DNA from: a virus
IMG/VR virus record: IMGVR_UViG_3300037297_000056
Coordinates: 1 to 42,534 of that record
DNA: 42,534 nt
Direction: 5' to 3' (one strand)
The position numbers and the translations under genes were made by a program. Under the pieces are notes generated by a model. The model searched no databases and was not told the origin of the DNA. It was given only the letters and a program-made list of their open reading frames with translations. Every line of letters begins with the position of its first letter. Position 1 is the stretch's first letter. This document shows, piece after piece, positions 6,678 through 39,106 of the stretch.

Positions 6678-7121
6678 ATGGCGAAATATACAGATGAGGA
6701 ACGAGCCGAATCGGTTGCATTGCTGAAGGCCGAGGGATATCCCGGCCGAGTTGGCTCATTGTCTGCTGTGTCTGACGCGACAGGTATTCCATCCCGGACA
6801 CTCTTTCGCTGGTTTCACGCTAAGAGCAATCCCCCTCCCGCCAATGTTGTCCGTCAAAAAACAGGCGACCTGGCGGATATGATGGAAGAGCTGCTAAACA
6901 ATACCCTGAGTCGGATGCAGACTATCATCCCCAGTGAGGACAACCTGCGCAGCCTGTCAGTAACGGCTGGCATCTTGACCGAGAAAATGCGTCTGCTACG
7001 GGATCAGCCAACTGAGAATGTCAACACCGGGACGATGGCGGAATGGAAGAAGCGAGCCAAAGAGCAACTTGGCCAGGTCGCCGAGTTGGAAGACGACGAT
7101 GGACAGGTAGAGGCGAGCTGA
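6678..7121 (+). CDS. terS: Terminase small subunit
   Basis: A 147-aa protein. The N terminus has a helix-turn-helix of the type that recognises phage DNA (ERAESVALLKAEGY, then VSDATGIPSRTLFRWFH, residues about 8-48). A helical oligomerisation region follows (LADMMEELLNNTLSRM, LRSLSVTAGILTEKMRLL) with an acidic tail. It lies directly upstream of the large subunit, 1 nt between stop and start. In this role it binds the packaging site and delivers DNA to the large subunit. No pac or cos site can be assigned from sequence. Confidence 0.75.
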   Translation: MAKYTDEERAESVALLKAEGYPGRVGSLSAVSDATGIPSRTLFRWFHAKSNPPPANVVRQKTGDLADMMEELLNNTLSRMQTIIPSEDNLRSLSVTAGILTEKMRLLRDQPTENVNTGTMAEWKKRAKEQLGQVAELEDDDGQVEAS

Positions 7122-7122
7122 T

Positions 7123-8586
7123 GTGCAGTTGCAGACACTTAAGGCACTATTTGCTGTAGAAAACATCGACCTCCCAGCGGCATCGGGAACTGAGACGGCC
7201 GTCTGGGAGACGTTTCAAGTTGGGCTCCTTAACAATGATACACGCTTCGGGGTTGACACCAAGGCCAGGCAGATCGCCTGGAGCTTCACGGCTGCGCTTG
7301 ACAGCGTGGCCGATGCATGCTTGAACCCAGGCCACCCGCACGTCTTCGTCTCCATCAACTTGGAGGAGGCGAAGGAGAAGATCCGTTACACTCGATCGAT
7401 CATAGAGGCCACCCATCCCAGCTTCCGGCCCCGGCTCGTCCGGGACAGTCTGACCGAGATGGAGACAGCCGACGGCACGCGCTGGATCAGCCACCCGTGC
7501 CGGCCTCCAAGAGGAAAGCCGGGGGCGCGGATCTATCTGGACGAGTTTGCTCACTACCCGGAGGGCCTGGACCGCGACATCTACGTGGCCGGATTGCCGG
7601 CGACCACCAAGCACGGCGGCTACATCCGCATCGGGTCGTCGCCGCTTGGCGGGCGGGGAATGCACTGGGAGATCCAGACCGAGACCCTGCGCCAGTACCC
7701 CGGCTACGACGGACGGCGCCGTCTGATCCCATGGTGGCAAGTCAGGGCGCTATGTAATGACGTGCCTACAGCCCGCCAGGATGCGCCGCTGATGAGCACT
7801 GATGAGCGGGTCTACGCTTTCGGTCGTCAGTCGATCATTGACATCTTCGAGAACATGTTCCTCGAAGACTTCCAGCAGGAGTACGAGTGTGCATGGGTCG
7901 ATGAGGCCAGCGCCTGGATTGACTGGGCACTGATCAAGCGCAACCAGCCACAAGACGGCCAGGACCTCTATCACTTCCACGCCAGGAGCGTGGACGAGGC
8001 GCTGGGGATGGTGCCAGATATTCAGGCAGCCATCAAAACAGGAGCAATGGAGGGGGCGCTATGTGCTGGTATCGATATTGGCCGAAAGCGGCACCTGACG
8101 GAGTTTGTTGCACTGGGGCGCAGCTCGACCACCAAGCAGCTGCCGGTGCGGCTGATGGTGAGCCTGGACCGGGTGCATTACGACGACCAGCAGCGATGCT
8201 TCGCGGAGATGCTGCATCTGTTGCCGATTACTCAATGCCTGATCGACCAGAATGGGATCGGAGCACAACTGGCGGAGAACCTTGGGAAGACATACCCGGA
8301 GCGTGCACAGGGAGTGGCGTTTACAAATCCATCTAAAGAGCTGTGGGCCGTCGAGGCCAGGATCCAGGCCGAACGGGGCAACACCCCGCTGCCATTCAAT
8401 CGGGACCTGGCCTACCAGATCCACAGCATCAAGAAGAAGGTAACGGCGGCTAAGAATAACGTGTTCGACACGGAAGGCAACGAGAAACACCACGCTGACA
8501 AGTTCTGGGCGTGGGCGCTTGCAATCTGGGCAAGCGGAAGCAACGGGCCTCAGTACGGCCCTCCAAGAGTAGAGAGATATGCTTAA
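7123..8586 (+). CDS. terL: Terminase large subunit
   Basis: A 487-aa packaging motor. A degenerate Walker A-like region (DTKARQIAWSF, residues 45-55) precedes Walker B ARIYLDEFAH (catalytic D140/E141). The RNase H-like nuclease half shows GIDIG (D318), CLIDQNG (D375) and HHADKFWAWALA (D459), the three acidic metal-binding positions. KARQI in place of a textbook GKT occurs in many phage terminases. The start is GTG at 7123, since no ATG follows in the right place. Its end overlaps the portal gene by 8 nt. It pumps DNA into the prohead through the portal and cuts genome units. Confidence 0.92.
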   Translation: MQLQTLKALFAVENIDLPAASGTETAVWETFQVGLLNNDTRFGVDTKARQIAWSFTAALDSVADACLNPGHPHVFVSINLEEAKEKIRYTRSIIEATHPSFRPRLVRDSLTEMETADGTRWISHPCRPPRGKPGARIYLDEFAHYPEGLDRDIYVAGLPATTKHGGYIRIGSSPLGGRGMHWEIQTETLRQYPGYDGRRRLIPWWQVRALCNDVPTARQDAPLMSTDERVYAFGRQSIIDIFENMFLEDFQQEYECAWVDEASAWIDWALIKRNQPQDGQDLYHFHARSVDEALGMVPDIQAAIKTGAMEGALCAGIDIGRKRHLTEFVALGRSSTTKQLPVRLMVSLDRVHYDDQQRCFAEMLHLLPITQCLIDQNGIGAQLAENLGKTYPERAQGVAFTNPSKELWAVEARIQAERGNTPLPFNRDLAYQIHSIKKKVTAAKNNVFDTEGNEKHHADKFWAWALAIWASGSNGPQYGPPRVERYA

Positions 8587-10126
8587 CTCACTTCAGACTG
8601 CGCCAGGATACGGCGTCATAAACAAGGCACTGAGCGGATACGTGCCAGCCACTGGCAATATTGTTGCCTCCAGCTATCTTGCCAGCCTGACAAACGCTGA
8701 GATAGATCGGCAAACCTCCTATCTCCACTATCGCGAATATTACGACGGCGAGCATGATACGATGCTCACCGAGCGCATGAGATCGTTCCTGCAGGTCAAG
8801 GACAGTCAAGAGTTCAACTACAACCTGTGCCCCATCGTGGTCGACGCTCTGGCCGAGCGGCTCAAGGTGACCGGGCTGGATGCTGGCGAGCAGGGCGAGT
8901 TGTTCTGGGGATGGTGGGATGCCAACCGATTGGATGGTATCCAGGGCATCGTCCATACCGCAGCCATCCGCGACGGCGATACCTACGTGATGGTCGAGTG
9001 GGATGCTGTTAACGCCAGGCCACGAATTGTGCACGAGATGGCATGTGCCGGCGGCGACGGCATCAAGGTGCACTACAGCCAGGAACATAGAGGCGAGATC
9101 GAGTATGCATCGAAGCGCTGGGTGGTCGAGCGCAATGGAGCAAAGAGCCGCCGGCTAAACCTGTACTACGCCGATCACATCGAAAAGTACGTTACCAGCG
9201 ACTACGAGAGCAACTATCAGCCTTATCTTGATGGTTCTCCGACCGGTCTTATCCTTCCAGGGCAATTAGGCAAATGCGGTTGGTACTGGTGGACGGACAG
9301 CGGAGCGCAGGGCGGCAGGCCGCTTGGTGTACCGGTGGTTCACTTCAAGAACAAGGACCAGGGCTATGACTGGGGGCAGTCGGAGCTGCATGACGTCATT
9401 CCGCTGCAGAATGCCCAGAACAAAGCGTTGATTGATTTGATCGCATCTAGCGATACGGCAGGCTTCCGGGTATACGTCGCGCTTGGCGACAAATGGGCGG
9501 GGATGAAGATATTCCCAGGAGCCATCTGGATGTCTGAAAGACCGCCAACCGAGGCAGATCTCAAGGCCATCGAGGGAGAAGACCCATCGAATCTCATCGC
9601 CGTAGTCGATAAGTTCGTGACGGCCATCGCCCAGGTGAGCCGGACGCCGATATCGTACTTCCAGGTCAGCAAGCAGCGCCCTGCTGAGGGCACGCTCCAG
9701 CAGGAGGAGAGCGGCCTGGTTGCTAAGACGGAGAAGTGCCAGACCGACTTCGGTAACTCGTGGGAGAACGCTTTTGCCATCGCCAGGCGGCTGGCCAATG
9801 CTTTCGGCGGCCAGAAGCTGGACGAGAAGCAGAGCATCGACTGCCAGTGGAAAGAGGCCCAGACGCGCAACGAGGTGCAGCATCTTGAAACGTTGGTGCT
9901 CAAGAAGCAGCTCGGCGTGCCGGACAAACAGATCTGGCGAGAGATGGGCTATGACGACAAGAAGATCGCCGAATTCCAGAAGCTGAAGCTGAAAGCGGCG
10001 GCCCAGTCCGTCAGGATGTTCCAGGGAGCGGGTCAGGCAGCAAGCATGAAAACGGGAAGTGACAATGGGAACGAGGAACCAGGAACAGAGAACAGACCAG
10101 CAGTCCCGTTCGGACAATCGTCGTGA
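8579..10126 (+). CDS. Portal protein (SPP1 gp6-like)
   Basis: A 515-aa protein with the hallmarks of the SPP1-type portal family: early RQTSYLHYREYYDGEH, then NYNLCPIVVDALAERLKVTGL (about residues 80-100), VHFKNKDQGYDWGQSELHDVIPLQNAQNKALIDL (about 245-278) and a C-terminal helical crown. It forms the dodecameric ring at one capsid vertex through which DNA passes and to which the connectors attach. Position directly after the terminase agrees. The C-terminal 40 residues are low-complexity and overlap the next small gene. Confidence 0.9.
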   Translation: MLNSLQTAPGYGVINKALSGYVPATGNIVASSYLASLTNAEIDRQTSYLHYREYYDGEHDTMLTERMRSFLQVKDSQEFNYNLCPIVVDALAERLKVTGLDAGEQGELFWGWWDANRLDGIQGIVHTAAIRDGDTYVMVEWDAVNARPRIVHEMACAGGDGIKVHYSQEHRGEIEYASKRWVVERNGAKSRRLNLYYADHIEKYVTSDYESNYQPYLDGSPTGLILPGQLGKCGWYWWTDSGAQGGRPLGVPVVHFKNKDQGYDWGQSELHDVIPLQNAQNKALIDLIASSDTAGFRVYVALGDKWAGMKIFPGAIWMSERPPTEADLKAIEGEDPSNLIAVVDKFVTAIAQVSRTPISYFQVSKQRPAEGTLQQEESGLVAKTEKCQTDFGNSWENAFAIARRLANAFGGQKLDEKQSIDCQWKEAQTRNEVQHLETLVLKKQLGVPDKQIWREMGYDDKKIAEFQKLKLKAAAQSVRMFQGAGQAASMKTGSDNGNEEPGTENRPAVPFGQSS

Positions 10127-10259
10127 TTTCGGCGAGATGCCCGACATGGACGACCTGCTGATACTGGCGGAGATTGATGAGGACGATGTCATCGAGGCCG
10201 AGGCGTGGCTTGAGGACGTCGCGCCTGAGATAGCGGCGAAGATAGGCAACGACAAATGA
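10065..10259 (+). CDS. Small acidic head-region protein
   Basis: About 64 aa from ATG 10065, preceded by CGGGAAG; a GTG at 10059 is an alternative. It overlaps the portal 3' end in another frame by 62 nt and runs to 10259. The C-terminal half is acidic and helical (MDDLLILAEIDEDDVIEAEA). No family is recognised. The 4-nt overlap with the following gene supports its being expressed. Confidence 0.45.
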   Translation: MGTRNQEQRTDQQSRSDNRRDFGEMPDMDDLLILAEIDEDDVIEAEAWLEDVAPEIAAKIGNDK

Positions 10260-10801
10260 GTGTTGAGCCGCTTGCTACAATCGCAAACGCAACAAACGAA
10301 GTGTTGAAGGCGCTGACGGAGAGATTGTATTCCGGACAGATCAACCTGGTTCAATGGTCACTAGGTGTGGCCGGCGAGTTGAAGGACGCACATGTAGCCA
10401 GCGCATTAGTCGGAACAGGAAGCAACAGCCTAAACTTACAACAACTGGCGCGAGTTGGTGGCACATTGGCAGACGAGTATCGGCACTTATTTGACTTTGC
10501 GGTAGGAATTGCAAGAGGCGATGTGAGCGAGGCACAGGCGCTAGCCAGGATTTCGCAGTACGGCAAAGCGAGCCAACAGGAATACTGGCGCGAGTATGCA
10601 AAAGCGCAGGAGAAGGTAGACGCCTGGGCCGCGCTCCCTATACTGTCGCAATCTCCAGGAGACGGCAAGACGCGGTGCAGAGGAAATTGCAACTGCACGC
10701 TCAGTAGTAAAGAGGACGGCATACATTGGGAAATAAACCCCGGCGAGAGCTGCGAAGATTGTGAAGCACTTGCCGCCGGCGGGCCCTACAGACCGAGGTA
10801 G
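10256..10801 (+). CDS. MuF-like minor head protein
   Basis: A 181-aa protein. It is helical over residues 1-130. The C terminus, TRCRGNCNCTLSSKEDGIHWEINPGESCEDC, matches the cysteine-rich end seen in minor head proteins of the MuF/SPP1 gp7 type. These proteins attach to the portal and travel with DNA in some phages. The position after the portal and before the scaffold is as expected. The protein is shorter than typical MuF proteins (about 250-400 aa), so the N-terminal domain may be reduced. Confidence 0.6.
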   Translation: MSVEPLATIANATNEVLKALTERLYSGQINLVQWSLGVAGELKDAHVASALVGTGSNSLNLQQLARVGGTLADEYRHLFDFAVGIARGDVSEAQALARISQYGKASQQEYWREYAKAQEKVDAWAALPILSQSPGDGKTRCRGNCNCTLSSKEDGIHWEINPGESCEDCEALAAGGPYRPR

Positions 10802-10803
10802 AT

Positions 10804-11007
10804 ATGCCATCAGTACCTGACATTCCGACCGACATGCACCTGCCCTATGGCCAGGCCCCAACGCCAACCTTCAAGGTTGCTCACTGCAAGGTCTGCAAGG
10901 CGCAGTGGGAGGTGAAGTCAGAGGACAATACGGACGCTAAAGGGTGTAATTTCTGCGGGGCAGACAAAACCGCAGTGACGATTACGAGTGAAAGACCTAG
11001 TTATTAA
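10804..11007 (+). CDS. Small zinc-ribbon protein in the head operon
   Basis: A 67-aa protein with CKVCKAQW and GCNFCGAD, a compact four-cysteine zinc ribbon (residues about 28-53). It lies between the minor head protein and the scaffold and overlaps the scaffold start by 20 nt. No family is recognised; a capsid-assembly or DNA-associated role is possible. Confidence 0.55.
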   Translation: MPSVPDIPTDMHLPYGQAPTPTFKVAHCKVCKAQWEVKSEDNTDAKGCNFCGADKTAVTITSERPSY

Positions 11008-11704
11008 GGGCGAGATGCCCACAGGAGACGGCGAGATGCCACCAGAAGGACAACCACAAGTACAACCAACGACAGACACGGGCGCGATGCCCCCAGCAAC
11101 ACCCCCGGCGGGAGATCCGCCCCCAGCGGCGCCACCTGCTGACGATATGCAGGCCGAGTTAGAGCGGACACGAGCCGCCCTGAAGGCTGCTAATGCCGAG
11201 GCGGCAGATCGGCGCAAGAAGCTGGACGCATACGAGAAGGCCGAGCAGGAACGCAAGCAGGCCGAGATGACCGAGCTTGAGAAGCTGCAGGCGGCCAAAG
11301 AAGAGGCTGACAAGCGGGCCGCTGATGCCGAGGCGCGCGCCAACCAACGTCTCATCGAGGCTGCATTCGTCTCCGAGGCAAGCAAGCACGGGGCAAAGTT
11401 CCCCGAAGATGCTTATGCCCTGGCCGACAGAAGCGGTGTCGCGATTGGAGAGGACGGCAAGGTAGTTGGTGTAGCCGAGGCGGTCAAGGCGCTGGTAGCA
11501 GGCGGGCGTTTGCCAATGGGTACCCCACCGGCGCCAGGTCTAGACGGCGGATCCGGAAGTGGGCAGCCACCAACCCGCGTTACTCTGACGGCTGAAGAAG
11601 AGACCATTGCAAAGAAGATGGGCATCTCGCCAGAAGACTATGCGGCAAGCAAGCAGGTGAAGTCAGCGCACCAACCCGGTAAGACTGACGATCGCCGAAC
11701 ATAG
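10988..11704 (+). CDS. Capsid scaffolding protein
   Basis: A 238-aa protein. A proline-rich N terminus is followed by a long, highly charged coiled coil (residues about 55-120: AELERTRAALKAANAEAADR onwards) and a C-terminal region with TLTAEEETIAKKMGISPEDY. This is the usual plan of phage scaffolding (GP20-like) proteins, which guide capsid assembly and are then lost. It lies just upstream of decoration and major capsid genes. GTG at 10988 is the likely start; ATG 11015 is an alternative. Confidence 0.8.
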   Translation: MKDLVIKGEMPTGDGEMPPEGQPQVQPTTDTGAMPPATPPAGDPPPAAPPADDMQAELERTRAALKAANAEAADRRKKLDAYEKAEQERKQAEMTELEKLQAAKEEADKRAADAEARANQRLIEAAFVSEASKHGAKFPEDAYALADRSGVAIGEDGKVVGVAEAVKALVAGGRLPMGTPPAPGLDGGSGSGQPPTRVTLTAEEETIAKKMGISPEDYAASKQVKSAHQPGKTDDRRT

Positions 11705-11717
11705 AAAGGGGTAGCAT

Positions 11718-12167
11718 ATGGCTACTAGAGGATTTGAATTCGCGTATTCGTTCGACGGCAGCACGCCGACCATCCTGGACTTTCCTGTTGATGGGACAGG
11801 CGCTTTTGCCGTCGGCGATTTGGTCTTGGTGAACTCTGACGGACAACTGGCAAGGGTCACCGGATCGACAACTGAGGTGACAGCTATCATCCAGGAAGCC
11901 CGCGCCAGCGGTTCAGATGGTGACCTGCTCAAAGCAGCCGTCATCAGCAGCCAGCAGGTGTGGAAGTGCTCGATGGATGACACTTCGACCGCTGCGGTGG
12001 CGTTCTACACCAAGACGCTGGACACCGTTGACCACAACACTATCGATGCTGACGACGTGACCAATGGGCGCATGATGCCAGTGGACGTGTCTCAGCTTGA
12101 CGACGAGGGGAACGTGTTGGCCTACGTGGTCTTCCGCGTACCTTCTCTCGGTAACGCGCTGAGCTAA
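11718..12167 (+). CDS. Head decoration / capsid-stabilising protein
   Basis: A 149-aa protein rich in beta segments (FPVDGTGAFAVGDLVLVNSD, LARVTGSTTEVTAIIQEA). The VGDLV...DG.L..V motif is shared by small capsid decoration proteins encoded between scaffold and capsid. The ribosome-binding site is AGAAAGGGGTAGC. It probably binds the outer capsid surface at three-fold sites. The assignment is by position and general features, without a diagnostic motif. Confidence 0.55.
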   Translation: MATRGFEFAYSFDGSTPTILDFPVDGTGAFAVGDLVLVNSDGQLARVTGSTTEVTAIIQEARASGSDGDLLKAAVISSQQVWKCSMDDTSTAAVAFYTKTLDTVDHNTIDADDVTNGRMMPVDVSQLDDEGNVLAYVVFRVPSLGNALS

Positions 12168-12184
12168 GCAAAAGGAGCTAAATC

Positions 12185-13087
12185 ATGGCTATCTCAGAAC
12201 AATGGCCCTATCTCCTGGAGCCGGGGCTTCGCAGAATTTTCTTCAATCAAACCATGGCGTTGGCCGCCCGCTCGGTGCGTCCACTGATTTTTAACGTCAT
12301 GACTAGCCAGAAGGCGCAGGAGCACTTCCTGGGAGCCGGAGGCATGGGAGACGTGCCTGAGTACAAAGGCACTATCGAGTATGACGATCTTGAGCAGTTG
12401 TACAAAACAACCCTCACCTTCAAGCAATGGGTCAAAGGGTTCAAGATCGAGCGACAGTTGGTCGATGACGACATGTACAACATCATCAACGCTCGTCCCG
12501 CTCAGCTGGCAATTGCCTACGAACGCACCAAGGAAAAACACGCGGCCAGCGTGTTCAACAATGCGTTCTCCTCGTCCTACGTTGGCGGGGACAGCGTGGC
12601 GCTGTGCTCGGCATCCCATCCGTACAGCCCAGGCAACTCGGCCGTTCAGAGCAATCTGGGTACGTCGGCACTGTCCTATGACACTGTCATCGCCACCCGC
12701 AAGCTGATGCGCGCCTTCGAGGACGACCGTGGCGAGCTGATGCCAGTTGTTCCTGATCTTATCGTCCACCCTCCTGAGTTGGAGGACACGGCCAATAAGA
12801 TCGTCAACACCGCCAACAAGCCATCGACCGGCGACTTCGAGGACAACTTCGTCAGGAGATCCAACATGAAGGCGATGTCCTGGGACTACCTGACCGACAG
12901 CAACAACTGGTTCCTGATCGACAGCGCGATGGCTGCTCTGCACCTGTTGTGGATCGACAGGGTAGCCACCGAGTTCGCGGCCGACCCGACCGGCGACTTC
13001 AACCTTGAGGGCAGGTACCGCGGGTACGCTCGTTGGGCATATGGCTGGAGCGACTGGCGGTTCGTGTACGGCCACAGCGTGACTTAA
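12185..13087 (+). CDS. Major capsid protein
   Basis: A 300-aa protein in the major-capsid position with a strong ribosome-binding site (AAAAGGAGCTAAATC). Features fit an HK97-fold protein of the Mu gpT type: a segment near residues 70-90 (LTFKQWVKGFKIERQLVDDD), a C.SASHPY-type loop (about 140), PDLIVHPPELEDTANKIV (about 195-212) and a C-terminal NWFLIDSAMAAL strand. It assembles the icosahedral shell. There is no separate prohead protease nearby, so maturation may not need cleavage. Confidence 0.82.
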   Translation: MAISEQWPYLLEPGLRRIFFNQTMALAARSVRPLIFNVMTSQKAQEHFLGAGGMGDVPEYKGTIEYDDLEQLYKTTLTFKQWVKGFKIERQLVDDDMYNIINARPAQLAIAYERTKEKHAASVFNNAFSSSYVGGDSVALCSASHPYSPGNSAVQSNLGTSALSYDTVIATRKLMRAFEDDRGELMPVVPDLIVHPPELEDTANKIVNTANKPSTGDFEDNFVRRSNMKAMSWDYLTDSNNWFLIDSAMAALHLLWIDRVATEFAADPTGDFNLEGRYRGYARWAYGWSDWRFVYGHSVT

Positions 13088-13100
13088 GGGAGAGCATAAC

Positions 13101-13997
13101 ATGACTACTACGAGTGAAATGCTCTACCAGCTCGGTGGCGTTCCTGTCGGGGGTGGTATTCCGATCTTCTTCGGGAGCTCGAATTACTACTTTGTTGATG
13201 GGACCAACGGCAGTGACGGCAACGATGGCAGGACGGCTGATCATGCATTTGAATCTATCGAACAGGCCATCACGGTCGTGAACGCTCGTATTGACTGGAC
13301 CGTTTCGCGCTGGGCAAATAACGATGTCATCGTTATTGCTCCCGGCACGTATGCCGAGAACCTGACATCGCTCCCGTATGGGGCGACTGTGATCGGGTTG
13401 GGCTACGATCTTCGAGACGCCCAGAACGGCGTGAAGATCAAGCCCGCAACAGGGGCAGCCGTAGACGTTGGTGCCTGCATCAATGCGACGTTTATCAACA
13501 TCCACTTCGAGACGGCTGAAACAGATGCTGGCGATCCCGCGTTTGACGCAGACATCTGCAACAACAACCAGTTCATCCGCTGCCGGTTTTCTGGACCAGC
13601 GGAGACGGCAACGGCGGTTGGATTTGTTACGAAGGATGCAGTTGGCAACAAGTGGCTGGATTGCGAGTTCGATTGCTGCGACAAGGGACTCGACGTCAAC
13701 TACGCGGATGCCAACGACAGCTTCAGCCACAATCTGATCCGTGACTGCCGCTTTACGCAGATCGACACGGCCGGCATCGAAATCAGCACTAATCTAGTTG
13801 GTCCGTCGAGCATTGTCGAGCGCTGCGTGTTTGTTGGCGCTGGTCAAACGATGGCCATTGGCATCGATGACAACTCCGGCATTTTGGATCTGGTTGACTG
13901 CTATATAACAGCAACCGATCCAGTTCAGGGTTGCCGGGCCGCTAACGGCTGCTATGGCAACGGTGTGTTGCTAGTTGGTACTGGCGAGACGTCATAA
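13101..13997 (+). CDS. Parallel beta-helix virion protein (pectate-lyase-like fold)
   Basis: A 298-aa protein beginning with YYFVDGTNGSDGNDGRTADH, the classic entry to right-handed parallel beta-helix proteins, followed by repeated short rungs (FINIHFETAE, FIRCRFSG, WLDCEFDCCD, IRDCRFTQID, VERCVFVG, LVDCYITA). No clear catalytic lyase residues are visible. Such folds usually bind or cut polysaccharides in tail spikes, but this gene sits between the major capsid protein and the connectors. It may therefore be a capsid-surface fibre or decoration that binds glycans. Confidence 0.65.
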   Translation: MTTTSEMLYQLGGVPVGGGIPIFFGSSNYYFVDGTNGSDGNDGRTADHAFESIEQAITVVNARIDWTVSRWANNDVIVIAPGTYAENLTSLPYGATVIGLGYDLRDAQNGVKIKPATGAAVDVGACINATFINIHFETAETDAGDPAFDADICNNNQFIRCRFSGPAETATAVGFVTKDAVGNKWLDCEFDCCDKGLDVNYADANDSFSHNLIRDCRFTQIDTAGIEISTNLVGPSSIVERCVFVGAGQTMAIGIDDNSGILDLVDCYITATDPVQGCRAANGCYGNGVLLVGTGETS

Positions 13998-13999
13998 CG

Positions 14000-14203
14000 A
14001 TGGCAGACAAATTTCGCTTCTATATACTGTGTCCAAGTTGTTCTGGTACTGGGCTGCTGACATGGGGAACAGACCCACAAACGCCAGGTACGACGGAATG
14101 CCCGACGTGTAAAGATGATATCGGCAATCCTCTCGCCCCAGTAGTTTATGATGGATTGCGGCACGTTTACGGCGGACGATTTGAGGAAGTGGAAGACGAA
14201 TAG
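14000..14203 (+). CDS. Small DnaJ-like zinc-finger protein
   Basis: A 67-aa protein with CPSCSGTG and CPTCKDD, the pattern of DnaJ-type cysteine repeats (C..C.G.G). It starts 2 nt after the stop of the beta-helix gene. It may help fold or fix a virion protein, by analogy with DnaJ cysteine modules, but the function is unknown. A similar motif occurs at 42017-42217. Confidence 0.55.
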   Translation: MADKFRFYILCPSCSGTGLLTWGTDPQTPGTTECPTCKDDIGNPLAPVVYDGLRHVYGGRFEEVEDE

Positions 14204-14208
14204 AAACT

Positions 14209-14228
14209 GGGGAGAGGCAACTCTCCCC
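14209..14228 (+). terminator. Hairpin, weak terminator or processing site
   Basis: A perfect 7-bp stem, GGGGAGA (14209-14215) and TCTCCCC (14222-14228), followed by TCTTCT. It sits within the late operon between head genes, where partial termination could set gene dosage after the capsid genes. Confidence 0.45.
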
Positions 14229-14245
14229 TCTTCTAGGAGGGGCTT

Positions 14246-14650
14246 ATGTACAGAGTGAACAAAACTATCGTCAGCCTTGCGCATGGCAAGGAGTTTGCTG
14301 CCGGCGGCCGTCTGTATGGCAACGAGTTTCAAGACTACGCTTTCGCCGCGATGCTGGCGGACGGCACCATCGAGGAGATCGGAGCCAAGCCGGAGGTGGA
14401 AGAACCGCTTCCGGAGGTCGAGGCTGTTGGGCCTATCATGATTGGCGAAGCCAAAGCGCAGGACGAACCTGAGCAGGATGAACCAGCGCTGGACGAGCCG
14501 GATCTGGATGAGCCCGTCAGCGATGAGGACGAGGCAACCGAGCCGGAGGTGGAAGAACCGGACGACGATGCAGAGCCTGTCGATGCAGATGCGGATGATG
14601 GCGAGCCGTCAGATGACGAAAAGCCTCGCAAGAAAGGGCGCAAGAAATGA
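14246..14650 (+). CDS. Head-region protein with long acidic tail
   Basis: A 134-aa protein. A folded N terminus (residues 1-46, VNKTIVSLAHGKEFAAGGRL) is followed by about 75 residues of acidic repeats around DEP (EQDEPALDEPDLDEP) and a basic end (KPRKKGRKK). It starts after CTAGGAGGGG. Small head proteins with acidic extensions occur near capsid genes in other phages. The tail may bind a basic partner during assembly. No specific family is recognised. Confidence 0.5.
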   Translation: MYRVNKTIVSLAHGKEFAAGGRLYGNEFQDYAFAAMLADGTIEEIGAKPEVEEPLPEVEAVGPIMIGEAKAQDEPEQDEPALDEPDLDEPVSDEDEATEPEVEEPDDDAEPVDADADDGEPSDDEKPRKKGRKK

Positions 14651-28931: not shown

Positions 28932-29306
28932 ATGGAGATTGCGACAGTTGTAAGCCTGGTGATCATCACCATCATCGTGGCTCTGGCCAATGAGCGCATC
29001 GTCGAGCTTTTGATCAAAGTAGGGCTGATCAAGGGTGAAGGCGAAGCTGCCACCTGGCAGAGTGTTATCGGGGCTCTTGCTATCGGCGCTCTGGCGTTGG
29101 CCAGGCATCTTGGTATCGAGAGCGATGTTACAAACTCAGTGGACGCACTCGTGCAAGCCGCTACAGCTTTTGCGCTACTTATACCGATGTTCGCGCAGGC
29201 CGGCGTTGCAAAGCTCGCTCATGAGGTATGGAAGCGGATCGGGTGGGTGACGCAAGCCAACCAGGTCAAGCAGTTCAACATAAGCGCAGCCCTCGATCGC
29301 GGCTAG
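28932..29306 (+). CDS. Holin-like membrane protein
   Basis: A 124-aa protein with hydrophobic segments at about residues 4-20 (ATVVSLVIITIIVALAN), 45-60 (SVIGALAIGALALARH) and 74-92 (VQAATAFALLIPMFAQAG), and a charged C terminus. Size, topology and position directly after the hydrolase fit a holin that times lysis. It is the last late gene, followed at once by a strong terminator. Confidence 0.68.
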   Translation: MEIATVVSLVIITIIVALANERIVELLIKVGLIKGEGEAATWQSVIGALAIGALALARHLGIESDVTNSVDALVQAATAFALLIPMFAQAGVAKLAHEVWKRIGWVTQANQVKQFNISAALDRG

Positions 29307-29327
29307 TTTGCGGCTAGGGAAACAAAA

Positions 29328-29355
29328 AAAAGACCCGCCCGAAGGCGGGTCTTTT
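29328..29355. terminator. Bidirectional rho-independent terminator
   Basis: A perfect 12-bp stem, AAAAGACCCGCC (29328-29339) and GGCGGGTCTTTT (29344-29355), with a CGAA tetraloop, A-rich on one side and T-rich on the other. It lies between the convergent late (+) and accessory (-) blocks and serves both. Confidence 0.9.
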
Positions 29356-29623
29356 AGTCGTCGTCCGCAAGAGGAGGAAGCCCAAGTAGTTCAACTTCCA
29401 GGCGCTCTACGGTTGCCTCTGCCTGGCCTTGGTATGCCTCACTTTTGCGGTCTCCGCCCCACGCTCCTGTGGTGGGCGGAATTATGCCACTCATTTTGTA
29501 GATGCCAATCGACGCTAAATCGACTAGCGCTGCCGTCCACGACCTCTTGTTCATGGCCTTGCGATAGGATTCTACCGCGGCAACAAACTCTTCGGTCACC
29601 TTTATCGTCTTTTTCTTCGTCAT
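29354..29623 (-). CDS. Ribbon-helix-helix-like small protein
   Basis: An 89-aa protein. The N terminus KKKTIKVTEEFVAAVESYRK plus NKRSWTAALVDLASIGIYKM fits a ribbon-helix-helix type DNA-binding fold. The C terminus has an acidic helix and ends ADDD. I chose the ATG at 29623, preceded by GAAAGGATAAC on the - strand; a longer reading has no ribosome-binding site. It is the last gene of the - strand operon and ends inside the shared terminator. It could regulate the operon. Confidence 0.6.
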   Translation of the reverse strand: MTKKKTIKVTEEFVAAVESYRKAMNKRSWTAALVDLASIGIYKMSGIIPPTTGAWGGDRKSEAYQGQAEATVERLEVELLGLPPLADDD

Positions 29624-29636
29624 TGTTATCCTTTCT

Positions 29637-29954
29637 GCATCTACCCTGCTGGCAGTAGGCATCGCTGATGCCTGACTGCTACGAACTAGTCTGCGAGTAT
29701 GTCTTTGCCAAGCATTGGTGCAAAGATCCAGTTTGCTGGTGCTTCGCCAAGCCGGCCTAGATGCTCATACGCAACCATTGCGCCACAAAAGAAATCGACT
29801 TCGTTGAATTTGTCTCCCAAAGTATTCTTTCTTGCTTTTGCAATTTCAGTCACGAGAATCGCGTATTCTTTTAAGTCAAAAAGTTCATTAGTCATTTCTC
29901 ACTCTCCTATGCTAGTCAGTGGCTCTCGTTGTCCACTGCCAGCAGGGTAGATGC
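29637..29954. repeat. Inverted-repeat cassette 1
   Basis: Arms 29637-29656 and 29935-29954 are perfect 20-bp inverted repeats (GCATCTACCCTGCTGGCAGT and its complement) enclosing one gene, 29686-29895. Just inside the left arm is hairpin A (29652-29679: GCAGT, AGGCATC, loop GCT, GATGCCT, one unpaired G, ACTGC). Just inside the right arm is hairpin B (CAGTGG 29917-29922, CCACTG 29933-29938). The right arm touches the left arm of cassette 2. Confidence 0.8.
29686..29895 (-). CDS. Cassette 1 protein, unknown function
   Basis: A 69-aa protein with a ribosome-binding site AGGAGAGTGAGAA. Helical, with DLKEYAILVTEIAKARKN and a hydrophobic section (VDFFCGAMVAYEHLGRLG). No family is recognised. It is the only gene inside the first inverted-repeat cassette. 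Small, unrelated genes in such units are typical of accessory host-takeover or anti-defence genes. Confidence 0.55.
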   Translation of the reverse strand: MTNELFDLKEYAILVTEIAKARKNTLGDKFNEVDFFCGAMVAYEHLGRLGEAPANWIFAPMLGKDILAD

Positions 29955-30313
29955 TGATGAGCAGTGAGCAGCAGGCCATGCGGCCTGGCTGCGAATGGCT
30001 ATAGGGTTGTGTATGCTGCATTCCATTCCTTCGTGGTATAGAATGCACCATACGCGAGATACTGAACGCCCTTGGCATCTATGCGCTTGATTGTTGGAGA
30101 ATTGGCTACACTGACGAAGCGCTCACTCGTCCAGACTGCACTGCCTGTCTTGAACGAATCGCGAATGTCTTTCGCTTGTTCGTTCGTCAGCAAAACGCCA
30201 AAGTCTTCCTTCGCTGCTTCCTTGATTGCCTTTAAGGTTGTTCGTGAGTTAAACATCGTAATCTCTCCCATGAGCTAAAGCGGCTCTCATCGTCCGCTGC
30301 TCGCTGCTCATCA
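29955..30313. repeat. Inverted-repeat cassette 2
   Basis: Arms TGATGAGCAGTGAGCAGC (29955-29972) and 30296-30313 pair at 17 of 18 positions around one gene, 29999-30256. Hairpin A is at 29968-29992 (GCAGC, AGGCC, loop ATGC, GGCCT, unpaired G, GCTGC). Hairpin B is AGCGG (30279-30283) with CCGCT (30294-30298). Its B loop, CTCTCATCGT, is close to the CTCTCGTTGT of cassette 1. Confidence 0.75.
29999..30256 (-). CDS. Cassette 2 protein, unknown function
   Basis: An 85-aa protein from the ATG at 30256, preceded by GGGAGAGATTACG; an ATG at 30271 would put that ribosome-binding sequence inside the gene. The sequence begins FNSRTTLKAIKEAAKEDFGV and ends with aromatic strands (VQYLAYGAFYTTKEWNAAYT). 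No family is recognised. Confidence 0.55.
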   Translation of the reverse strand: MFNSRTTLKAIKEAAKEDFGVLLTNEQAKDIRDSFKTGSAVWTSERFVSVANSPTIKRIDAKGVQYLAYGAFYTTKEWNAAYTTL

Positions 30314-30316
30314 TGT

Positions 30317-30758
30317 GTACTCTACTCATGGCAGTAGGCATACATGATGCCGTACTGCGCTAGTGCTATTGCTTGACGACATACTGCAATTGGCGACACT
30401 CCGAGGTGGCGATGTATCCGGCGGTGACTACTCGATGAGCGATCGCTACGTCTGGCACGTCAAAGCGCCAGTGAGTGTTACGAGGCCCGTGATGCAATCT
30501 GTATCCAGACGCATAAAGTGCCAGCCCAAGCGCCAATTTGTCGAGGACCTGCTCACTCGTCTCAAATCCGCCCTGTGTGCTCATCCATAACCACTCATTC
30601 ACGCGCCATTCGTCGTCGTGACTCTCGCCCATGTATTCCAGCTCCATACATGCCTGGAACTCGAACAGTGCCTGCATTGCGGCGTTGTCTATCTCAAACA
30701 TTTCACACTCTCCTATTTTAGTCAGCAGACCGAATGTCTACTGCCAGGAGTAGAGTAC
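30317..30758. repeat. Inverted-repeat cassette 3
   Basis: Arms 30317-30337 and 30738-30758 pair at 20 of 21 positions around the gene at 30366-30701. Hairpin A is at 30331-30358 (GCAGTA, GGCAT, loop ACATG, ATGCC, unpaired G, TACTGC). Hairpin B is at 30723-30743 (CAGCAGAC, loop CGAAT, GTCTACTG). The left arm begins 3 nt after cassette 2 ends, and cassette 4 begins 1 nt after this one. Confidence 0.78.
30366..30701 (-). CDS. Cassette 3 protein, unknown function
   Basis: A 111-aa protein with ribosome-binding site AGGAGAGTGTGAA. Acidic and aromatic N-terminal half (FEFQACMELEYMGESHDDEW, then RVNEWLWMSTQGG), then helix SEQVLDKLALGLALYASGYR, then a beta end. No family is recognised. Confidence 0.55.
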   Translation of the reverse strand: MFEIDNAAMQALFEFQACMELEYMGESHDDEWRVNEWLWMSTQGGFETSEQVLDKLALGLALYASGYRLHHGPRNTHWRFDVPDVAIAHRVVTAGYIATSECRQLQYVVKQ

Positions 30759-30775
30759 TGTGACAGCCAGAGAAA

Positions 30776-30794
30776 AGGAGGCGATTAGCCTCCT
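30776..30794 (-). terminator. Terminator-like hairpin, - strand
   Basis: AGGAGGC (30776-30782), loop GATTA, GCCTCCT (30788-30794). Read on the - strand the stem is followed by TTTTCT. It lies just after the stop of the gene at 30802-31170, so termination here may be partial if the downstream cassettes share the promoter. Confidence 0.65.
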
Positions 30795-30801
30795 ATGTGT
30801 A

Positions 30802-31170
30802 CTAGGAATTGTTACGTAGATACAACGCAATCTTGGCGTCAGCTGCTTTTGCAGGACAGAGATAGAAGTCATCCCCTAGTCCCGAGAATGGGTTGTAGCC
30901 CATCTTGTCATCGCCAAAGCAACTCACGTGATTGGTCTGAATGTGATCTCTTGTTACTTTGTTGGCTAGATACCACTTAGGTGGTGAAAAGGTGCTGGCG
31001 GCAATCTTCACAAAATACAACCCCATTTTTGCCAAAATACTCTTGCGCTCTTCCACGCTCATGCTGCTTGCATTGTTGTGAAAGCGGTAATATCCAATCC
31101 TGCAATTCCAATCGATTGCTACATGCTTGCAAACTGTGTGCTTCTTGAAGTAGTAGTTGCTGTTATCCAT
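30802..31170 (-). CDS. Cassette 4 protein, unknown function
   Basis: A 122-aa protein preceded by AGGAGAGAATACG. Histidine and cysteine residues near the N terminus (HTVCKHVAIDWNC) could bind metal. Other parts include SVEERKSILAKMGLYFVKIA, FSPPKWYLANKVTRDHI and DDFYLCPAKAADAKIALYLR. No family is recognised. It is the first gene of the - strand operon, about 145 nt downstream of the predicted transcription start. Confidence 0.6.
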   Translation of the reverse strand: MDNSNYYFKKHTVCKHVAIDWNCRIGYYRFHNNASSMSVEERKSILAKMGLYFVKIAASTFSPPKWYLANKVTRDHIQTNHVSCFGDDKMGYNPFSGLGDDFYLCPAKAADAKIALYLRNNS

Positions 31171-31321
31171 CGTATTCTCTCCTATTGAATGTTTTGATAA
31201 TCGCCTCGTCTTCTCTGACTGTCACTTGCGAAGTGCCCCTTCGCTCTGTTCCTCGCTCCTTGGTTCGCGGTAGCCCCCGCTGGTCTGCTGTCCGGTATTT
31301 GTTTCTCTCAACAATAGATAC

Positions 31322-31350
31322 ATTATACCATGGTCCTACCTTGATGTCAA
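31322..31350 (-). promoter_or_regulatory. Consensus sigma70-type promoter for the - strand block
   Basis: Reading the - strand: TTGACA (31350-31345), a 17-bp spacer, TATAAT (31327-31322), both perfect consensus. Transcription should begin near 31315 and run through the genes at 31170 to 29354. The 5' leader is about 145 nt and contains cassette 4's right arm. Confidence 0.85.
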
Positions 31351-31415
31351 GCAAAATGAGGACCAATTCCTCGATTTCAGACGATCTTTACCTTATGTTC
31401 CGAACACCGACTTAG

Positions 31416-31445
31416 TTGACAAAACCGTAATAGTTTATGTATACT
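31416..31445 (+). promoter_or_regulatory. Sigma70-type promoter, + strand
   Basis: TTGACA (31416-31421), an 18-bp spacer and TATACT (31440-31445). It is divergent from the - strand promoter, 66 nt away, and lies 45 nt upstream of the RHH gene at 31490. It probably starts the early + transcript. The gene-free interval 31171-31489 holds this divergent promoter pair and the long - strand leader. Confidence 0.75.
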
Positions 31446-31489: not shown

Positions 31490-31681
31490 ATGGATCAGCT
31501 ATTGACGCTGTGGATCGACAGCAAAACAAAAACAAAAACCCGCATCGCTGCGGCTACCCAGGGCATATCGATGAGCGAGTGGATCAGGAGAGCCATCGAT
31601 GAGCGATTGCGTCTTTTTGATACTGGTGAAGCACAAAGCGTTGATGGTGGCGTCACAGACCCCAGCAGCGGGCAGCTTTAA
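31490..31681 (+). CDS. Ribbon-helix-helix-like regulator
   Basis: A 63-aa protein: beta strand LLTLWIDSKTKTKTRIAAAT and helices GISMSEWIRRAIDERLRLF match the ribbon-helix-helix (CopG-like) fold, with an unstructured C terminus. It sits directly behind the divergent promoter pair, so it is the best candidate for the repressor of the early and - strand transcripts. The upstream sequence CAGGAAAACCCGAGACT offers a ribosome-binding site. Confidence 0.7.
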   Translation: MDQLLTLWIDSKTKTKTRIAAATQGISMSEWIRRAIDERLRLFDTGEAQSVDGGVTDPSSGQL

Positions 31682-31985: not shown

Positions 31986-32541
31986 GTGGGATAATGGGGA
32001 TAAGCCCACAACATCGGGCGAGACGGCAGCTCGCGACAGATACAATAGATCGGGGAATAAGAAGCAGGGAGCCAGGCCATCGTGTGAGTACCGAGCGAAA
32101 TTGTCCGTGGCCTGGTCATTACTGCGGGGTGTCCAGTGACAGCCAGTCCTCATAAGGCTGGTAGATGGGGCCAGCACCCATCCCCGCTATCGAGAGGGCT
32201 CACTCGTCCATTCTTCCAAGCAGCAGATGTTCTCGATAAACATCGAGCCCTCTCTTTTAACAAGGGTATTCCCCCTCGCACAGGGGCCATACTTCTCTCC
32301 TATGGGTGGGCGGTGTTGCCATCACCGCTCCACCTGGGAGGGCACGACACACGCTATCCGCCAATAAACATCGTACTCATGTCGTGTCTTCCCAGGTGGA
32401 AATATCCACCACGGATCGCCAGTTCCCCACTGGCCACCCCAGCGGCATTCCTGGGGGCTTGACCTCGCAGGAGATTAGGCAGTAGGCAGACAACAAACTG
32501 AATTTGTAGGGTCATCGCTCAGGGGCGCGGATGCCCGCCCC
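31986..32541 (+). ncRNA. Candidate large structured RNA (multi-hairpin intergenic region)
   Basis: This stretch has no convincing gene but many stems: 31986-31990/32005-32009; 32018-32022/32030-32034; 32072-32079/32108-32115; 32140-32144/32156-32160; 32164-32169/32177-32182; 32192-32201/32245-32254; 32272-32276/32282-32286; 32287-32291/32301-32305; 32310-32315/32323-32328; a 20-bp stem 32329-32348/32381-32400 with two G-U pairs; 32418-32423/32429-32434; 32437-32442/32451-32456; and 32522-32527/32536-32541. Four of these are back to back from 32272 to 32400. ATAAACATCG occurs in the loops of two large hairpins (32236-32245 and 32364-32373). The arrangement suggests an ornate phage RNA or a long regulatory leader. 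I do not recognise a known class. Confidence 0.5.
32189..32258 (+). promoter_or_regulatory. Attenuator-like alternative structure
   Basis: GAGAGGGCTC (32192-32201) pairs with GAGCCCTCTC (32245-32254), followed by TTTT, a terminator-like stem. CTCGAT (32232-32237) can instead pair either with ATCGAG at 32189-32194 or with ATCGAG at 32242-32247. Either pairing competes with the terminator stem. Confidence 0.4.
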
Positions 32542-36456: not shown

Positions 36457-36648
36457 ATGAAGAGAATCTACAAACAGACGGTGCATAGGATGCCCATAAT
36501 GCACGATGTCGGCTGCCCTTTCTGCGAGCGCACAGTAGAAAAAGGCAGATTTGTCTATTGTATCGAGGGCTTCCGGTGGCGCTGCTGGGAGTGTATTCGA
36601 CAGCTGGCGAGAACTATCGCCGAGATGAGACAGGAGAGAGTATCGTGA
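36457..36648 (+). CDS. Small zinc-ribbon protein
   Basis: A 63-aa protein from ATG 36457 with DVGCPFCERTVEKG and WRCWECIRQLA, a compact four-cysteine zinc ribbon. Longer readings enter the hairpin region and lack support. Its TGA overlaps the GTG start of the RecT-like gene, so it is translationally coupled to it. Confidence 0.5.
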   Translation: MKRIYKQTVHRMPIMHDVGCPFCERTVEKGRFVYCIEGFRWRCWECIRQLARTIAEMRQERVS

Positions 36649-38273
36649 GTGAAGAAGCAAAAGCAATTGAAACCGTGCAAGACCAAGACGAACCATTGAA
36701 GACAGAGAAACAGATTTCCCTCTACTACGGCGAACGCAGCGAGATCCGCGAGCTGGTCGACCGCATGCGGGCCGGGCTTCCAAACGCCCTAGCTGTTCCC
36801 GATAGCGGCATCCGCGCCCTGGCCACCGCCGCCTACGCCCATGACCTGGACCCCTGGAACGGGGAGATATGGGTCATCTACAATGAGAACAAGGGCGAGA
36901 CATCTCTTATGGCAGGCGTCAAGGGGCTTCGCAAAGCAGCCAAGCGCCAGTTGGCGGATGGACACCACTACTACCTAGACTTCACACCCATCATGCCGGA
37001 AGAGTATCCCCAGTACGGTCTGGACACCCCGGATGCGAAGGGGCGACCGGTCGAGTTGGCCGAGATATGCCACCTGCGACGAGGCGACGCATGTGAGCAG
37101 TATTCCAAGACTCTGCGCCAGGTTTTCGACATGTGCGGATCGTTCGAGATTGCCAGGGAGATGCTTGGCCCCATGCCGGTATACGTCGGGATCGGCGTGG
37201 TCCGCAAGGGCGAAAAATCGAAAATGGAGCGCTGTCAGCTTGTCAAGAAGCGGGCCGAGAGTGACGCCCTGAAGCGCGCCTTCGATTTGCCATTCTCCGA
37301 TCGGGTGAACGGCAATGGCGGTTCTGTAACCGTTGGCAATGCCGATGACGACTCCATCGAGGGCGAGTTCCAGGTGATGGACGGCGGTGACGGCAGCGGC
37401 GAGCACCGTCCTGCTCTAGCCGCAGCGCCTGAACAACTAAACCTGAAGGATCTCGATCGCCCATTGGATCCGGAGCTCCTCCAGGAGTACGTGCGAAGCA
37501 ATGGCTATCCGCTCTTCCCTGGCGATGGTGCCACCGACAAGCAGCGCAAGGTTCTGACTGGGCTACTCAAAGGCCTGTACAAGGGCAGTGCAACCCAGGA
37601 GAAGGACGCGAAAGCCTACCTTGAGTTCGTAGCTGGAACCGACACAACAGAGAAGCTGAGCAAGAAAACAGCCTCAGTGCTCATTGATCTCGTCAAGGCC
37701 GACGGCGATGACGAATGGGGCCCCAGCGACGAGGCAAAGGAAGAAGCCCAGCGCGTGCTGCGGGAAGTCTACAAGGACCAGGGGCAAATGGACATGTTTG
37801 AAGACGGCGACAATGACGAGGAACCGCCTGCAGATGAGCCGAAGAGCGAGTTGGACCAGGCATTCCCAAGGGATAAAGACGGAAACCTAGTCGAGGACAA
37901 CGCGGATGATAAACCTAAACCCGAGGACAAACCGAAGAAGAAGAAGGCAAAGGCTGCCGTCAAGGCTCAGAGCGTAAAGGCAGAGAAGAAGGTCGCCGTC
38001 AAGCCTGAGACCAATAAGACCGAAGATAAGCCTGCAGAACCAGCCAAGGACAACGGCGAGGATCCTACTATTCTGGCCCTAAAGCGTAGCAAACCGTCGA
38101 GCTGGCTGGTGGCGTCGGAATGGCTCAGAAAGCACTTCAAGGGCTTCAGCATGACGCCTGGGCAGCTCCGTGAGGCAGTGCTCGAAAAGAAGGGAATGAA
38201 GTTCGAGGACAAGCTGGACGTGCTCGACGGCTGGACGGTAGCCATCGAGCTTGGGCAGGCTGCGACGAAGTAA
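36645..38273 (+). CDS. RecT/Red-beta-like single-strand annealing protein with long C-terminal extension
   Basis: A 542-aa protein from GTG 36645, with AGGAGAG 6 nt upstream. Residues about 40-215 contain SGIRALATAAYAHDLDPWNG, then SLMAGVKGLRKAAKRQLADG and ERCQLVKKRAESDALKRAFD. This fits RecT-family annealing proteins, which promote strand annealing in recombination and replication. The remaining 320 residues are unusual: an acidic linker, a lysine-rich stretch (about 425-455: KPKPEDKPKKKKAKAAVKAQ) and a C-terminal domain (LRKHFKGFSMTPGQLREAVL). No partner exonuclease is recognised nearby. Confidence 0.65.
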   Translation: MSEEAKAIETVQDQDEPLKTEKQISLYYGERSEIRELVDRMRAGLPNALAVPDSGIRALATAAYAHDLDPWNGEIWVIYNENKGETSLMAGVKGLRKAAKRQLADGHHYYLDFTPIMPEEYPQYGLDTPDAKGRPVELAEICHLRRGDACEQYSKTLRQVFDMCGSFEIAREMLGPMPVYVGIGVVRKGEKSKMERCQLVKKRAESDALKRAFDLPFSDRVNGNGGSVTVGNADDDSIEGEFQVMDGGDGSGEHRPALAAAPEQLNLKDLDRPLDPELLQEYVRSNGYPLFPGDGATDKQRKVLTGLLKGLYKGSATQEKDAKAYLEFVAGTDTTEKLSKKTASVLIDLVKADGDDEWGPSDEAKEEAQRVLREVYKDQGQMDMFEDGDNDEEPPADEPKSELDQAFPRDKDGNLVEDNADDKPKPEDKPKKKKAKAAVKAQSVKAEKKVAVKPETNKTEDKPAEPAKDNGEDPTILALKRSKPSSWLVASEWLRKHFKGFSMTPGQLREAVLEKKGMKFEDKLDVLDGWTVAIELGQAATK

Positions 38274-38290
38274 TGAGTGAGAAAACAATG

Positions 38291-38310
38291 AGGGCGGGCG
38301 CATCCGCCCT
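38291..38310. terminator. Hairpin after the RecT-like gene
   Basis: AGGGCGG (38291-38297), loop GCGCAT, CCGCCCT (38304-38310), followed by CTAATAG with no strong T-run. It lies between the recombination and replication genes and may act as a weak terminator or mRNA stabiliser. Confidence 0.5.
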
Positions 38311-38371
38311 CTAATAGTCTGGGCATTACAAGGCCATCTTCCACACAGATAGAACTCAAAAGGATTGCGAG

Positions 38372-39106
38372 ATGAGCAATACGACACTTCACTGGCAAAT
38401 GAGAAAGGTTCTACCAGAGTTCCGGGAACGCGGACGGCTCGCCGTCTATATTTGCTACCTTCTGCACGCTAACGAGCGCAACAGGTCATGGCCGTCGGCA
38501 AAACTTATTGCTGCCGAGACTGGATTCGCCAGCGAATCGGTGGCGGCCGCCAAAGCATGGCTCGTTGAACATGGCGCACTCGAGTCTGTGCCATACGACA
38601 AGCGAGAAGGTGCAGCCGAGCTAAATTTGCATCAACGCCAGGACGTCATGCAGATTACTGGGGTGATAACCATAGATGGAATCACGCATCATACCCTCTA
38701 TTTTAATATTTCGCCTAGCGAAATTTCGCCTACCAAAATTTCGCCTAGCGAAATAGAAGATATTACCAATATAGAAGGTATTGACATTATAGAAGATACC
38801 CCCAAACCCCCACGTGGTGGTAATGGTGACAGACCAAAAATCTTTGCCGTCTATGAACAGAACATCGGAATACTGACCCCAATGATAGCAGACGACCTGA
38901 ATGATTGGCTTGACACGGTCCCAGAGAGTTGGATAGAGGCAGCTATCAAGATTGCATCCCAGGCAAACAAGAGAAGCATGCGCTATGTCTCAGGTATTCT
39001 CAGAAGATGCAATAACGAAGGGCGACCTCCGGAGGCGTCCCGCCAGAACGACGGCGACGGCGATGAAGCCCTGCCTGACTTTTCGAAGGGAAGGGTCCGG
39101 GCATGA
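38372..39106 (+). CDS. Replication initiator (winged-helix plus DnaD-like domain)
   Basis: A 244-aa protein after AAAAGGATTGCGAG. Residues 1-80 form a winged helix (WPSAKLIAAETGFASESVAA...), as in many phage initiators. A linker at residues 113-143 is encoded by two sets of DNA repeats (iterons). Residues about 155-215 (MIADDLNDWLDTVPESWIEA, then RYVSGILRRCNNEG) resemble the DnaD/DnaB_2 helicase-loading domain. It overlaps the DnaB gene by 4 nt. It probably binds the origin located in its own gene, like lambda O, and loads DnaB. Confidence 0.75.
   Translation: MSNTTLHWQMRKVLPEFRERGRLAVYICYLLHANERNRSWPSAKLIAAETGFASESVAAAKAWLVEHGALESVPYDKREGAAELNLHQRQDVMQITGVITIDGITHHTLYFNISPSEISPTKISPSEIEDITNIEGIDIIEDTPKPPRGGNGDRPKIFAVYEQNIGILTPMIADDLNDWLDTVPESWIEAAIKIASQANKRSMRYVSGILRRCNNEGRPPEASRQNDGDGDEALPDFSKGRVRA
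38708..38754 (+). repeat. Origin iterons, set 1 (15-bp period, three copies)
   Basis: ATTTCGCCTAGCGAAAT at 38708-38724, ATTTCGCCTACCAAAAT at 38723-38739 and ATTTCGCCTAGCGAAAT at 38738-38754. Copies 1 and 3 are perfect palindromes (ATTTCGC, CTA, GCGAAAT). They lie in the linker of the initiator gene, as in the lambda origin. Confidence 0.85.
38753..38800 (+). repeat. Origin repeats, set 2 (18-bp period, three copies)
   Basis: ATAGAAGATATT at 38753, ATAGAAGGTATT at 38771 and ATAGAAGATACC at 38789, in an AT-rich stretch directly after set 1. They may be a second protein-binding set or part of the DNA-unwinding element. Confidence 0.75.

Follow-up and report, generated by a model that had tools for sequence, protein, structure and literature searches.

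Four tandem phage cistrons, each predicted to be closed by its own RNA panhandle

Here we describe a tandem array of four small genes, each enclosed by an inverted repeat of its own, in a genome record of 42,534 nucleotides from an uncultured phage (IMG/VR record IMGVR_UViG_3300037297_000056; the whole stretch was analyzed and is called the window below). The four units, A to D in the order of transcription, stand head to tail, measure 318 to 466 nt, and carry a single − strand gene apiece. From the modeled pairing, we consider it likely that RNA panhandles close each cistron and that the arms have an RNA-level role of some kind. That the panhandles are processing and end-protection stems, as around bacterial 16S and 23S rRNAs, is an analogy for which we see about as much to be said for as against. 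Somewhat more tentatively, the phage transcript may be a string of closed loops that are orthogonal to each other, with one loop for each gene and each loop being a unit of processing, of stability, and possibly of translation licensing.

All four units lie on the − strand. Unit A (30760-31225, 466 nt) has its 5′ arm at 31198-31225 and its 3′ arm at 30760-30787, which match at 25 of 28 positions; the corresponding arms lie at 30734-30758 and 30317-30341 in unit B (30317-30758, 442 nt), at 30288-30313 and 29955-29980 in unit C (29955-30313, 359 nt), and at 29927-29954 and 29637-29664, with 20 perfect pairs, in unit D (29637-29954, 318 nt). The core repeats reported in the initial annotation were reproduced in position and count (29637-29656/29935-29954, 20/20; 29955-29972/30296-30313, 17/18; 30317-30337/30738-30758, 20/21; and 30760-30787/31198-31225, 25/28), as were the gaps of 0, 3, and 1 nt between neighboring units, and ungapped extension gives arms of 31, 26, 25, and 28 nt in units D, C, B, and A, respectively, with 85 to 92% complementarity. 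The same annotation held that chance would hardly produce this layout, and shuffling bears it out. When ungapped inverted repeats whose arms lie at most 700 nt apart were sought across all 42,534 bases of the record, the units scored 20, 19, 19, and 15 and included the top three matches; besides the units, only one repeat, a short and local hairpin at 32329-32400, reached a score of at least 15, and 13 was the next best score. Dinucleotide shuffles of the record (n = 200) gave a top score of 17 and reached at least 15 only 14 times (0.07 per shuffle), and shuffles of positions 29300-31400 (n = 500) gave a top score of 14. The unit repeats are not due to chance. The hairpin at 32329-32400, with 21-nt arms around a 30-nt loop, is the window's only strong inverted repeat outside the array.

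Units A to D and a fifth gene, E, are predicted from the sequence to form one leftward operon in a single promoter-terminator frame. The predicted array promoter (31322-31350, − strand) is of the sigma-70 type, with TTGACA and TATAAT 17 nt apart (12/12) and a TG ahead of the −10 element. Taking the start site from this promoter, a predicted leader of 90 nt (31226-31315, − strand) with a local GCGAAG/CTTCGC hairpin precedes unit A. The − strand genes encode proteins of 122 (gene A, 30802-31170), 111 (gene B, 30366-30701), 85 (gene C, 29999-30256), 69 (gene D, 29686-29895), and 89 (gene E, 29354-29623) amino acids; gene C has a GGGAGAG ribosome site and a start that we corrected from 30271 to 30256, and gene E, the operon's last, has no panhandle. 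A strong terminator hairpin of 12 pairs at 29328-29355, with a U tract on the − strand, ends the operon, and a shorter terminator-like match is present on the + strand at 29337-29350. The five proteins showed no similarity when compared with each other and gave no family matches, and we found no relatives of genes A, C, D, and E and no convincing ones of gene B. AlphaFold models made without alignments, with mean pLDDT of 34 for gene A and 47 for gene B, were set aside. Back to back with the array promoter stands a near-perfect (11/12) divergent promoter (31416-31445, + strand), followed by a small ribbon-helix-helix gene (31490-31681, + strand), an arrangement that has the look of a control switch of the phage. 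At 36558-39106 (+ strand) lie RecT-like and DnaB_2/HTH replication genes, and the C-terminal part of the DnaB_2/HTH gene is 49% identical over 80 amino acids to a gene on the Anaerolineae contig discussed below.

Measured from the unit ends, the 5′ UTRs of units A, B, C, and D are 55, 57, 57, and 59 nt long and the 3′ UTRs 42, 49, 44, and 49 nt. The original description of one gene inside one inverted repeat per unit was right about the enclosure and understated the anatomy, because each 3′ UTR also holds a local hairpin and the 5′ UTRs of B, C, and D, not that of A, hold a matching one. The inner stretch of the 3′ arm doubles as the downstream side of the 3′ hairpin. Units with both hairpins therefore have two forms open to them, one long helix or two hairpins together with a shorter helix at the outer ends; these are nearly equal in energy in B and C, and the long helix is preferred in A and D. 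Such hairpins raise the question of whether the inverted repeats are a by-product, in which similar palindromic hairpins (terminators or promoters) flank the genes, mimic an inverted repeat, and pair over long range without function. Single hairpin-flanked genes do occur in distant relatives (L057, L053, L068, and L071), and the UTR hairpins of B, C, and D look alike. However, no strong local hairpin takes in the outer 10 to 15 nt of the arms, whose best pairing is across the gene, these outer arms vary between units yet remain paired, and unit A forms its 28-nt helix without any 5′ hairpin, so that we regard a by-product as quite unlikely. The double use of each 3′ arm as one side of a local hairpin would also suit transcription control by long-range antitermination, whereby RNA polymerase terminates or pauses at the 3′ hairpin unless that hairpin is paired with the 5′ arm. 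TTTTCTC does follow the 3′ hairpin of unit A (30776-30794), which is scored as a terminator, but the 3′ hairpins of the other three units lack a U tract and a terminator call, and we think this explanation very unlikely.

The preferred reading, that the arms close each cistron as RNA, draws on predicted pairing. On the transcribed strand, the 5′ UTR of every unit is predicted to pair with its own 3′ UTR, and folding the − strand transcript, a check proposed with the initial annotation, predicted four closing helices. In an unconstrained partition-function fold of the 1994-nt predicted transcript, which leaves out translation and co-transcriptional order and in which local hairpins compete with inner helix parts, the outer closing pairs of all four units have probabilities near 1. 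In this fold, closing pairs range from 0.8 to 1.0 and are mostly at least 0.96, except at mismatched positions and in the inner part of unit B, where long helix and hairpins share the ensemble roughly evenly. Duplex energies between true partners are −45.6 to −64.7 kcal/mol for whole UTRs and −27.6 to −41.5 kcal/mol for the outer 20 nt. Between wrong partners, the outer 20 nt give −3.9 to −11.3 kcal/mol, save for the 5′ arm of B with the 3′ arm of D (−23.0) and the 5′ arm of D with the 3′ arm of B (−16.5), both of which stem from the most similar pair of UTRs. The arms are thus private in these models, wrong partners pairing far less strongly than true ones. Flank duplexes between 5′ and 3′ sides reach −47 to −66 kcal/mol in A to D versus −11 to −30 kcal/mol in sixteen other phage genes, with gene E (−25 kcal/mol) inside the latter range. 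A separate survey of flank duplex energies discriminates poorly, GC-rich coding DNA dominating it, and duplex energy by itself does not set the units apart in GC-rich relatives. Wobble pairs over the full arms, counted by eye, amount to 4 G-U versus 4 A-C; they do not clearly favor the transcribed strand and so do not discriminate between an RNA-level and a DNA-level role.

The placement of the arms is compatible with translation. The long arms end 27 to 32 nt upstream of the AUG and restart 14 to 24 nt past the stop codon, and a ribosome that is starting or stopping covers the stretch just inside the arm ends. The arms thus lie just outside the ribosome footprint, which would allow translation of the loop while the helix stays closed. 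A stronger coupling has been considered, namely translation licensing, in which the 5′ arm and its hairpin partly mask the ribosome site until the 3′ UTR takes the arm, with the result that only complete cistrons are translated. The 5′ hairpins of B, C, and D use arm sequence that the panhandle also uses, and without the 3′ UTR the predicted access to the ribosome site falls from 0.51 to 0.05 in B and from 0.41 to 0.25 in D. The 3′ UTR has no such effect in C (0.18 versus 0.19), however, and a small one in A (0.36 versus 0.31), and A has no 5′ hairpin; licensing is not common to all four units, and we consider it unlikely as the explanation of the array.

Comparison among the units adds a further line of evidence for closure at the RNA level. 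Units B, C, and D have UTRs that fit a common frame of 62 columns that ends in the ribosome site, into which A fits weakly; the 5′ UTRs of D and C are 71% identical over 38 nt and the 3′ UTRs of D and B 83% over 30 nt. When the outer helices of B, C, and D are aligned by hand, right-justified on a common GCAG(T/C) and with separate origins of the arms being possible, 10 of the 13 pairs compared differ between units at both partners, and no pair differs at just one partner; two of the remaining pairs are invariant, and one is mismatched in B and C. In either case, whichever origin the arms had, pairing was maintained or created while arm sequence could vary. The proposal in the initial annotation that each mRNA segment closes as a panhandle is hence favored by the whole-transcript fold, the private pairing, the two-sided changes, the placement just outside the ribosome footprint, and the promoter-terminator frame; its role we infer.

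The initial annotation had offered as an alternative that the units are DNA cassettes, that is, captured or mobile gene modules with terminal inverted repeats, exchanged in an integron-like manner or resembling the tiny mycobacteriophage mobile elements (MPMEs). MPMEs are about 440 bp long, with one small ORF and short inverted repeats, and occur as near-identical copies at scattered sites. The array, by comparison with this description, has four different genes in tandem with private arms. A single gene per unit, units that abut, and related UTR frames of B, C, and D around unrelated proteins would all be compatible with exchange. On the other side, (i) the outer unit ends (GTGACAG, GTACTCT, TGATGAG, and GCATCTA) are unrelated, whereas a recombinase would need a common sequence; (ii) all units share one direction inside one promoter-terminator frame; (iii) our searches of IMG/VR and INPHARED found the units nowhere else, and copies are absent from the rest of the window and from the relatives scanned; (iv) no recombinase or transposase was found among the families tested, the window genes being annotated in part; and (v) a syntenic relative differs by the whole operon rather than by swapped single units. 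Gene capture is rather improbable on these grounds, and we do not retain it.

In our searches of INPHARED, IMG/VR, and related viral DNA, the array was found in one genome only. INPHARED held no DNA match to the array and no tblastn match to gene A, C, or D, and IMG/VR held no true relative of gene A, B, or D; a weak IMG/VR match to gene B (44% over 38 amino acids), which lacks arms, was rejected as a relative. Sequence patterns built on the 3′ hairpin of B and D or on the 5′ frame of C and D returned chance matches only, and a covariance model built on the 5′ frame that B, C, and D share hit 3 of 396 host-class genomes, about the chance level, and nothing in 1.3 Mb of relatives. When 2.46 Mb of viral DNA, most of it related, was scanned for panhandles, no comparable array appeared, just single hairpin-flanked genes and tandem repeats. 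A second, identical fragment (L008) covers just 6841-14514 of the window. Two unrelated viral contigs (L178:4053-4076 and L184:2481-2502) show a hairpin followed directly by CATAGGAGAGT and ATG, the same hairpin and ribosome-site frame as in units B to D. In a distant relative, a lone gene (L057:6760-7140, also L148:4317-4697) sits between near-identical palindromic hairpins, CCGGGCAGGTCC and GGACCTGCCCGG; judged by sequence, this hairpin-flanked gene would be a simpler cousin of the array layout.

Terminase relatives were found in 102 stretches, and the closest in a named genome (86% identity) comes from a contig of 40 kb that was binned with a genome of the Anaerolineae (Chloroflexi). This contig is partly syntenic with the window, with homologues of the window genes at 27688 and 32565 bracketing the array interval. 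The array arms were not found in the relatives scanned, and this syntenic relative has none, with no gene-enclosing inverted repeat scoring at least 13; three of its gene flanks pair at −11.0, −18.0, and −42.4 kcal/mol, the last via interrupted pairing. A relative that lacks both the arms and the array genes at the syntenic site marks the array locus as a variable regulatory or accessory one. The relative's equivalent leftward operon (L188:4388-5495, + strand) consists of two helix-turn-helix (HTH) regulators, and a rightward ribbon-helix-helix gene stands at the place of the window's 31490-31681 gene. The two HTH regulators suggest that the panhandle operon replaced an immunity-type module. 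Directly past a small membrane-protein gene, the same relative has an AT-rich hairpin with 21-nt arms (95%; L188:5563-5630).

Several known systems share parts of this design. The flanking inverted repeats of 16S and 23S pre-rRNA form double-stranded stems, commonly with RNase III sites in bacteria (PMC7038931). Like the array, pre-rRNA stems of bacteria and archaea surround each functional unit with inverted repeats, in a tandem series along a single operon; unlike them, the array encloses phage protein-coding cistrons, and cleavage is here a predicted role. By the measures of a processing stem, every unit is flanked by arms able to pair on the transcribed strand over roughly 20 bp or more, and all units lie in one predicted transcription unit, with its 12/12 promoter and one terminator. 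In the icaR mRNA of Staphylococcus aureus, pairing between the 5′ and 3′ UTRs is cut by RNase III (PMC3868564). There too a gene's own UTRs pair over long range as an RNase III substrate, which for the array is only predicted, but icaR is a single, repressed gene in which a short UCCCCUG motif pairs with the ribosome site, whereas the array has four tandem units with helices of 20 to 28 bp off the ribosome site. An icaR-type block of the Shine-Dalgarno sequence was rejected, given the distance of the arms from the AUG and a 3′ UTR that raises or leaves unchanged the predicted access.

Cluster K mycobacteriophages carry start-associated sequences (SAS) with an ATAGGAG-type ribosome site, about half of which are preceded by an imperfect 17-bp inverted repeat (the extended form, ESAS), so that, as in the array, an inverted repeat and a ribosome site recur at several small phage genes (PMC3203893). 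ESAS repeats contain promoters (PMC11373665) and lie wholly upstream of the gene, whereas the array arms enclose it. The 5′ hairpins of B, C, and D loosely resemble the upstream ESAS repeat, and A has none; an ESAS-like sigma-A promoter in the repeats was rejected, the UTRs of B, C, and D having no promoter call and unit A only a weak 9/12 match. In the 50.0 of 52.8 kb of phage TM4 that were scanned, no array of gene-enclosing repeats was found. No curated Rfam family was matched at its gathering score, and self-cleaving or bulge-helix-bulge circularization was rejected, there being no Rfam match and no such bulges. In line with the initial annotation, which knew of no system built in just this way, a limited literature search found no description of four tandem orthogonal panhandles around protein-coding genes. 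By analogy, the array would work like processing stems or closed-loop mRNAs.

In the mechanism that we propose, the leftward operon transcript would fold into four closed loops in succession; in each, the two ends of the cistron would pair as a 20- to 28-bp panhandle helix that is poorly matched to its neighbors. A helix of 20 to 28 nt, about two turns, suits RNase III. This double-strand-specific host nuclease would trim the paired ends and turn the polycistronic RNA into single-gene mRNAs, whose two ends, staying in a helix, would undergo slower 5′-to-3′ and 3′-to-5′ decay while ribosomes translate the loop; private arm sequences would stop the start of one gene from pairing with the end of another. 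From terminase similarity alone, we infer that the likely host class is Anaerolineae (Chloroflexi). Searches of 41 genomes of this class detected RNase III in 38 of them, RNase Y in 39, RNase J, counted over the cut-off, in 36, and RNase E/G in none. With RNases J and Y present and RNase E/G absent, a free 5′ end would therefore matter. RNase J has 5′-to-3′ exonuclease activity (PMC3937233), and a helix-held 5′ end may slow it in cells of the likely host class.

If real, a phage mRNA architecture of tandem orthogonal gene loops could possibly be one that has not previously been described. In bacterial mRNAs, the known cases of long-range pairing between 5′ and 3′ UTRs are a few single genes. 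Four tandem units with arms that are paired and yet mutually different would show gene-by-gene insulation within an operon at the RNA level. The array would offer a test set for the effects of closed-loop mRNAs on decay and translation in bacteria without RNase E, and a natural design by which several genes under one promoter may have separate expression levels. If this is true, phages use private helix codes to insulate genes inside an operon.
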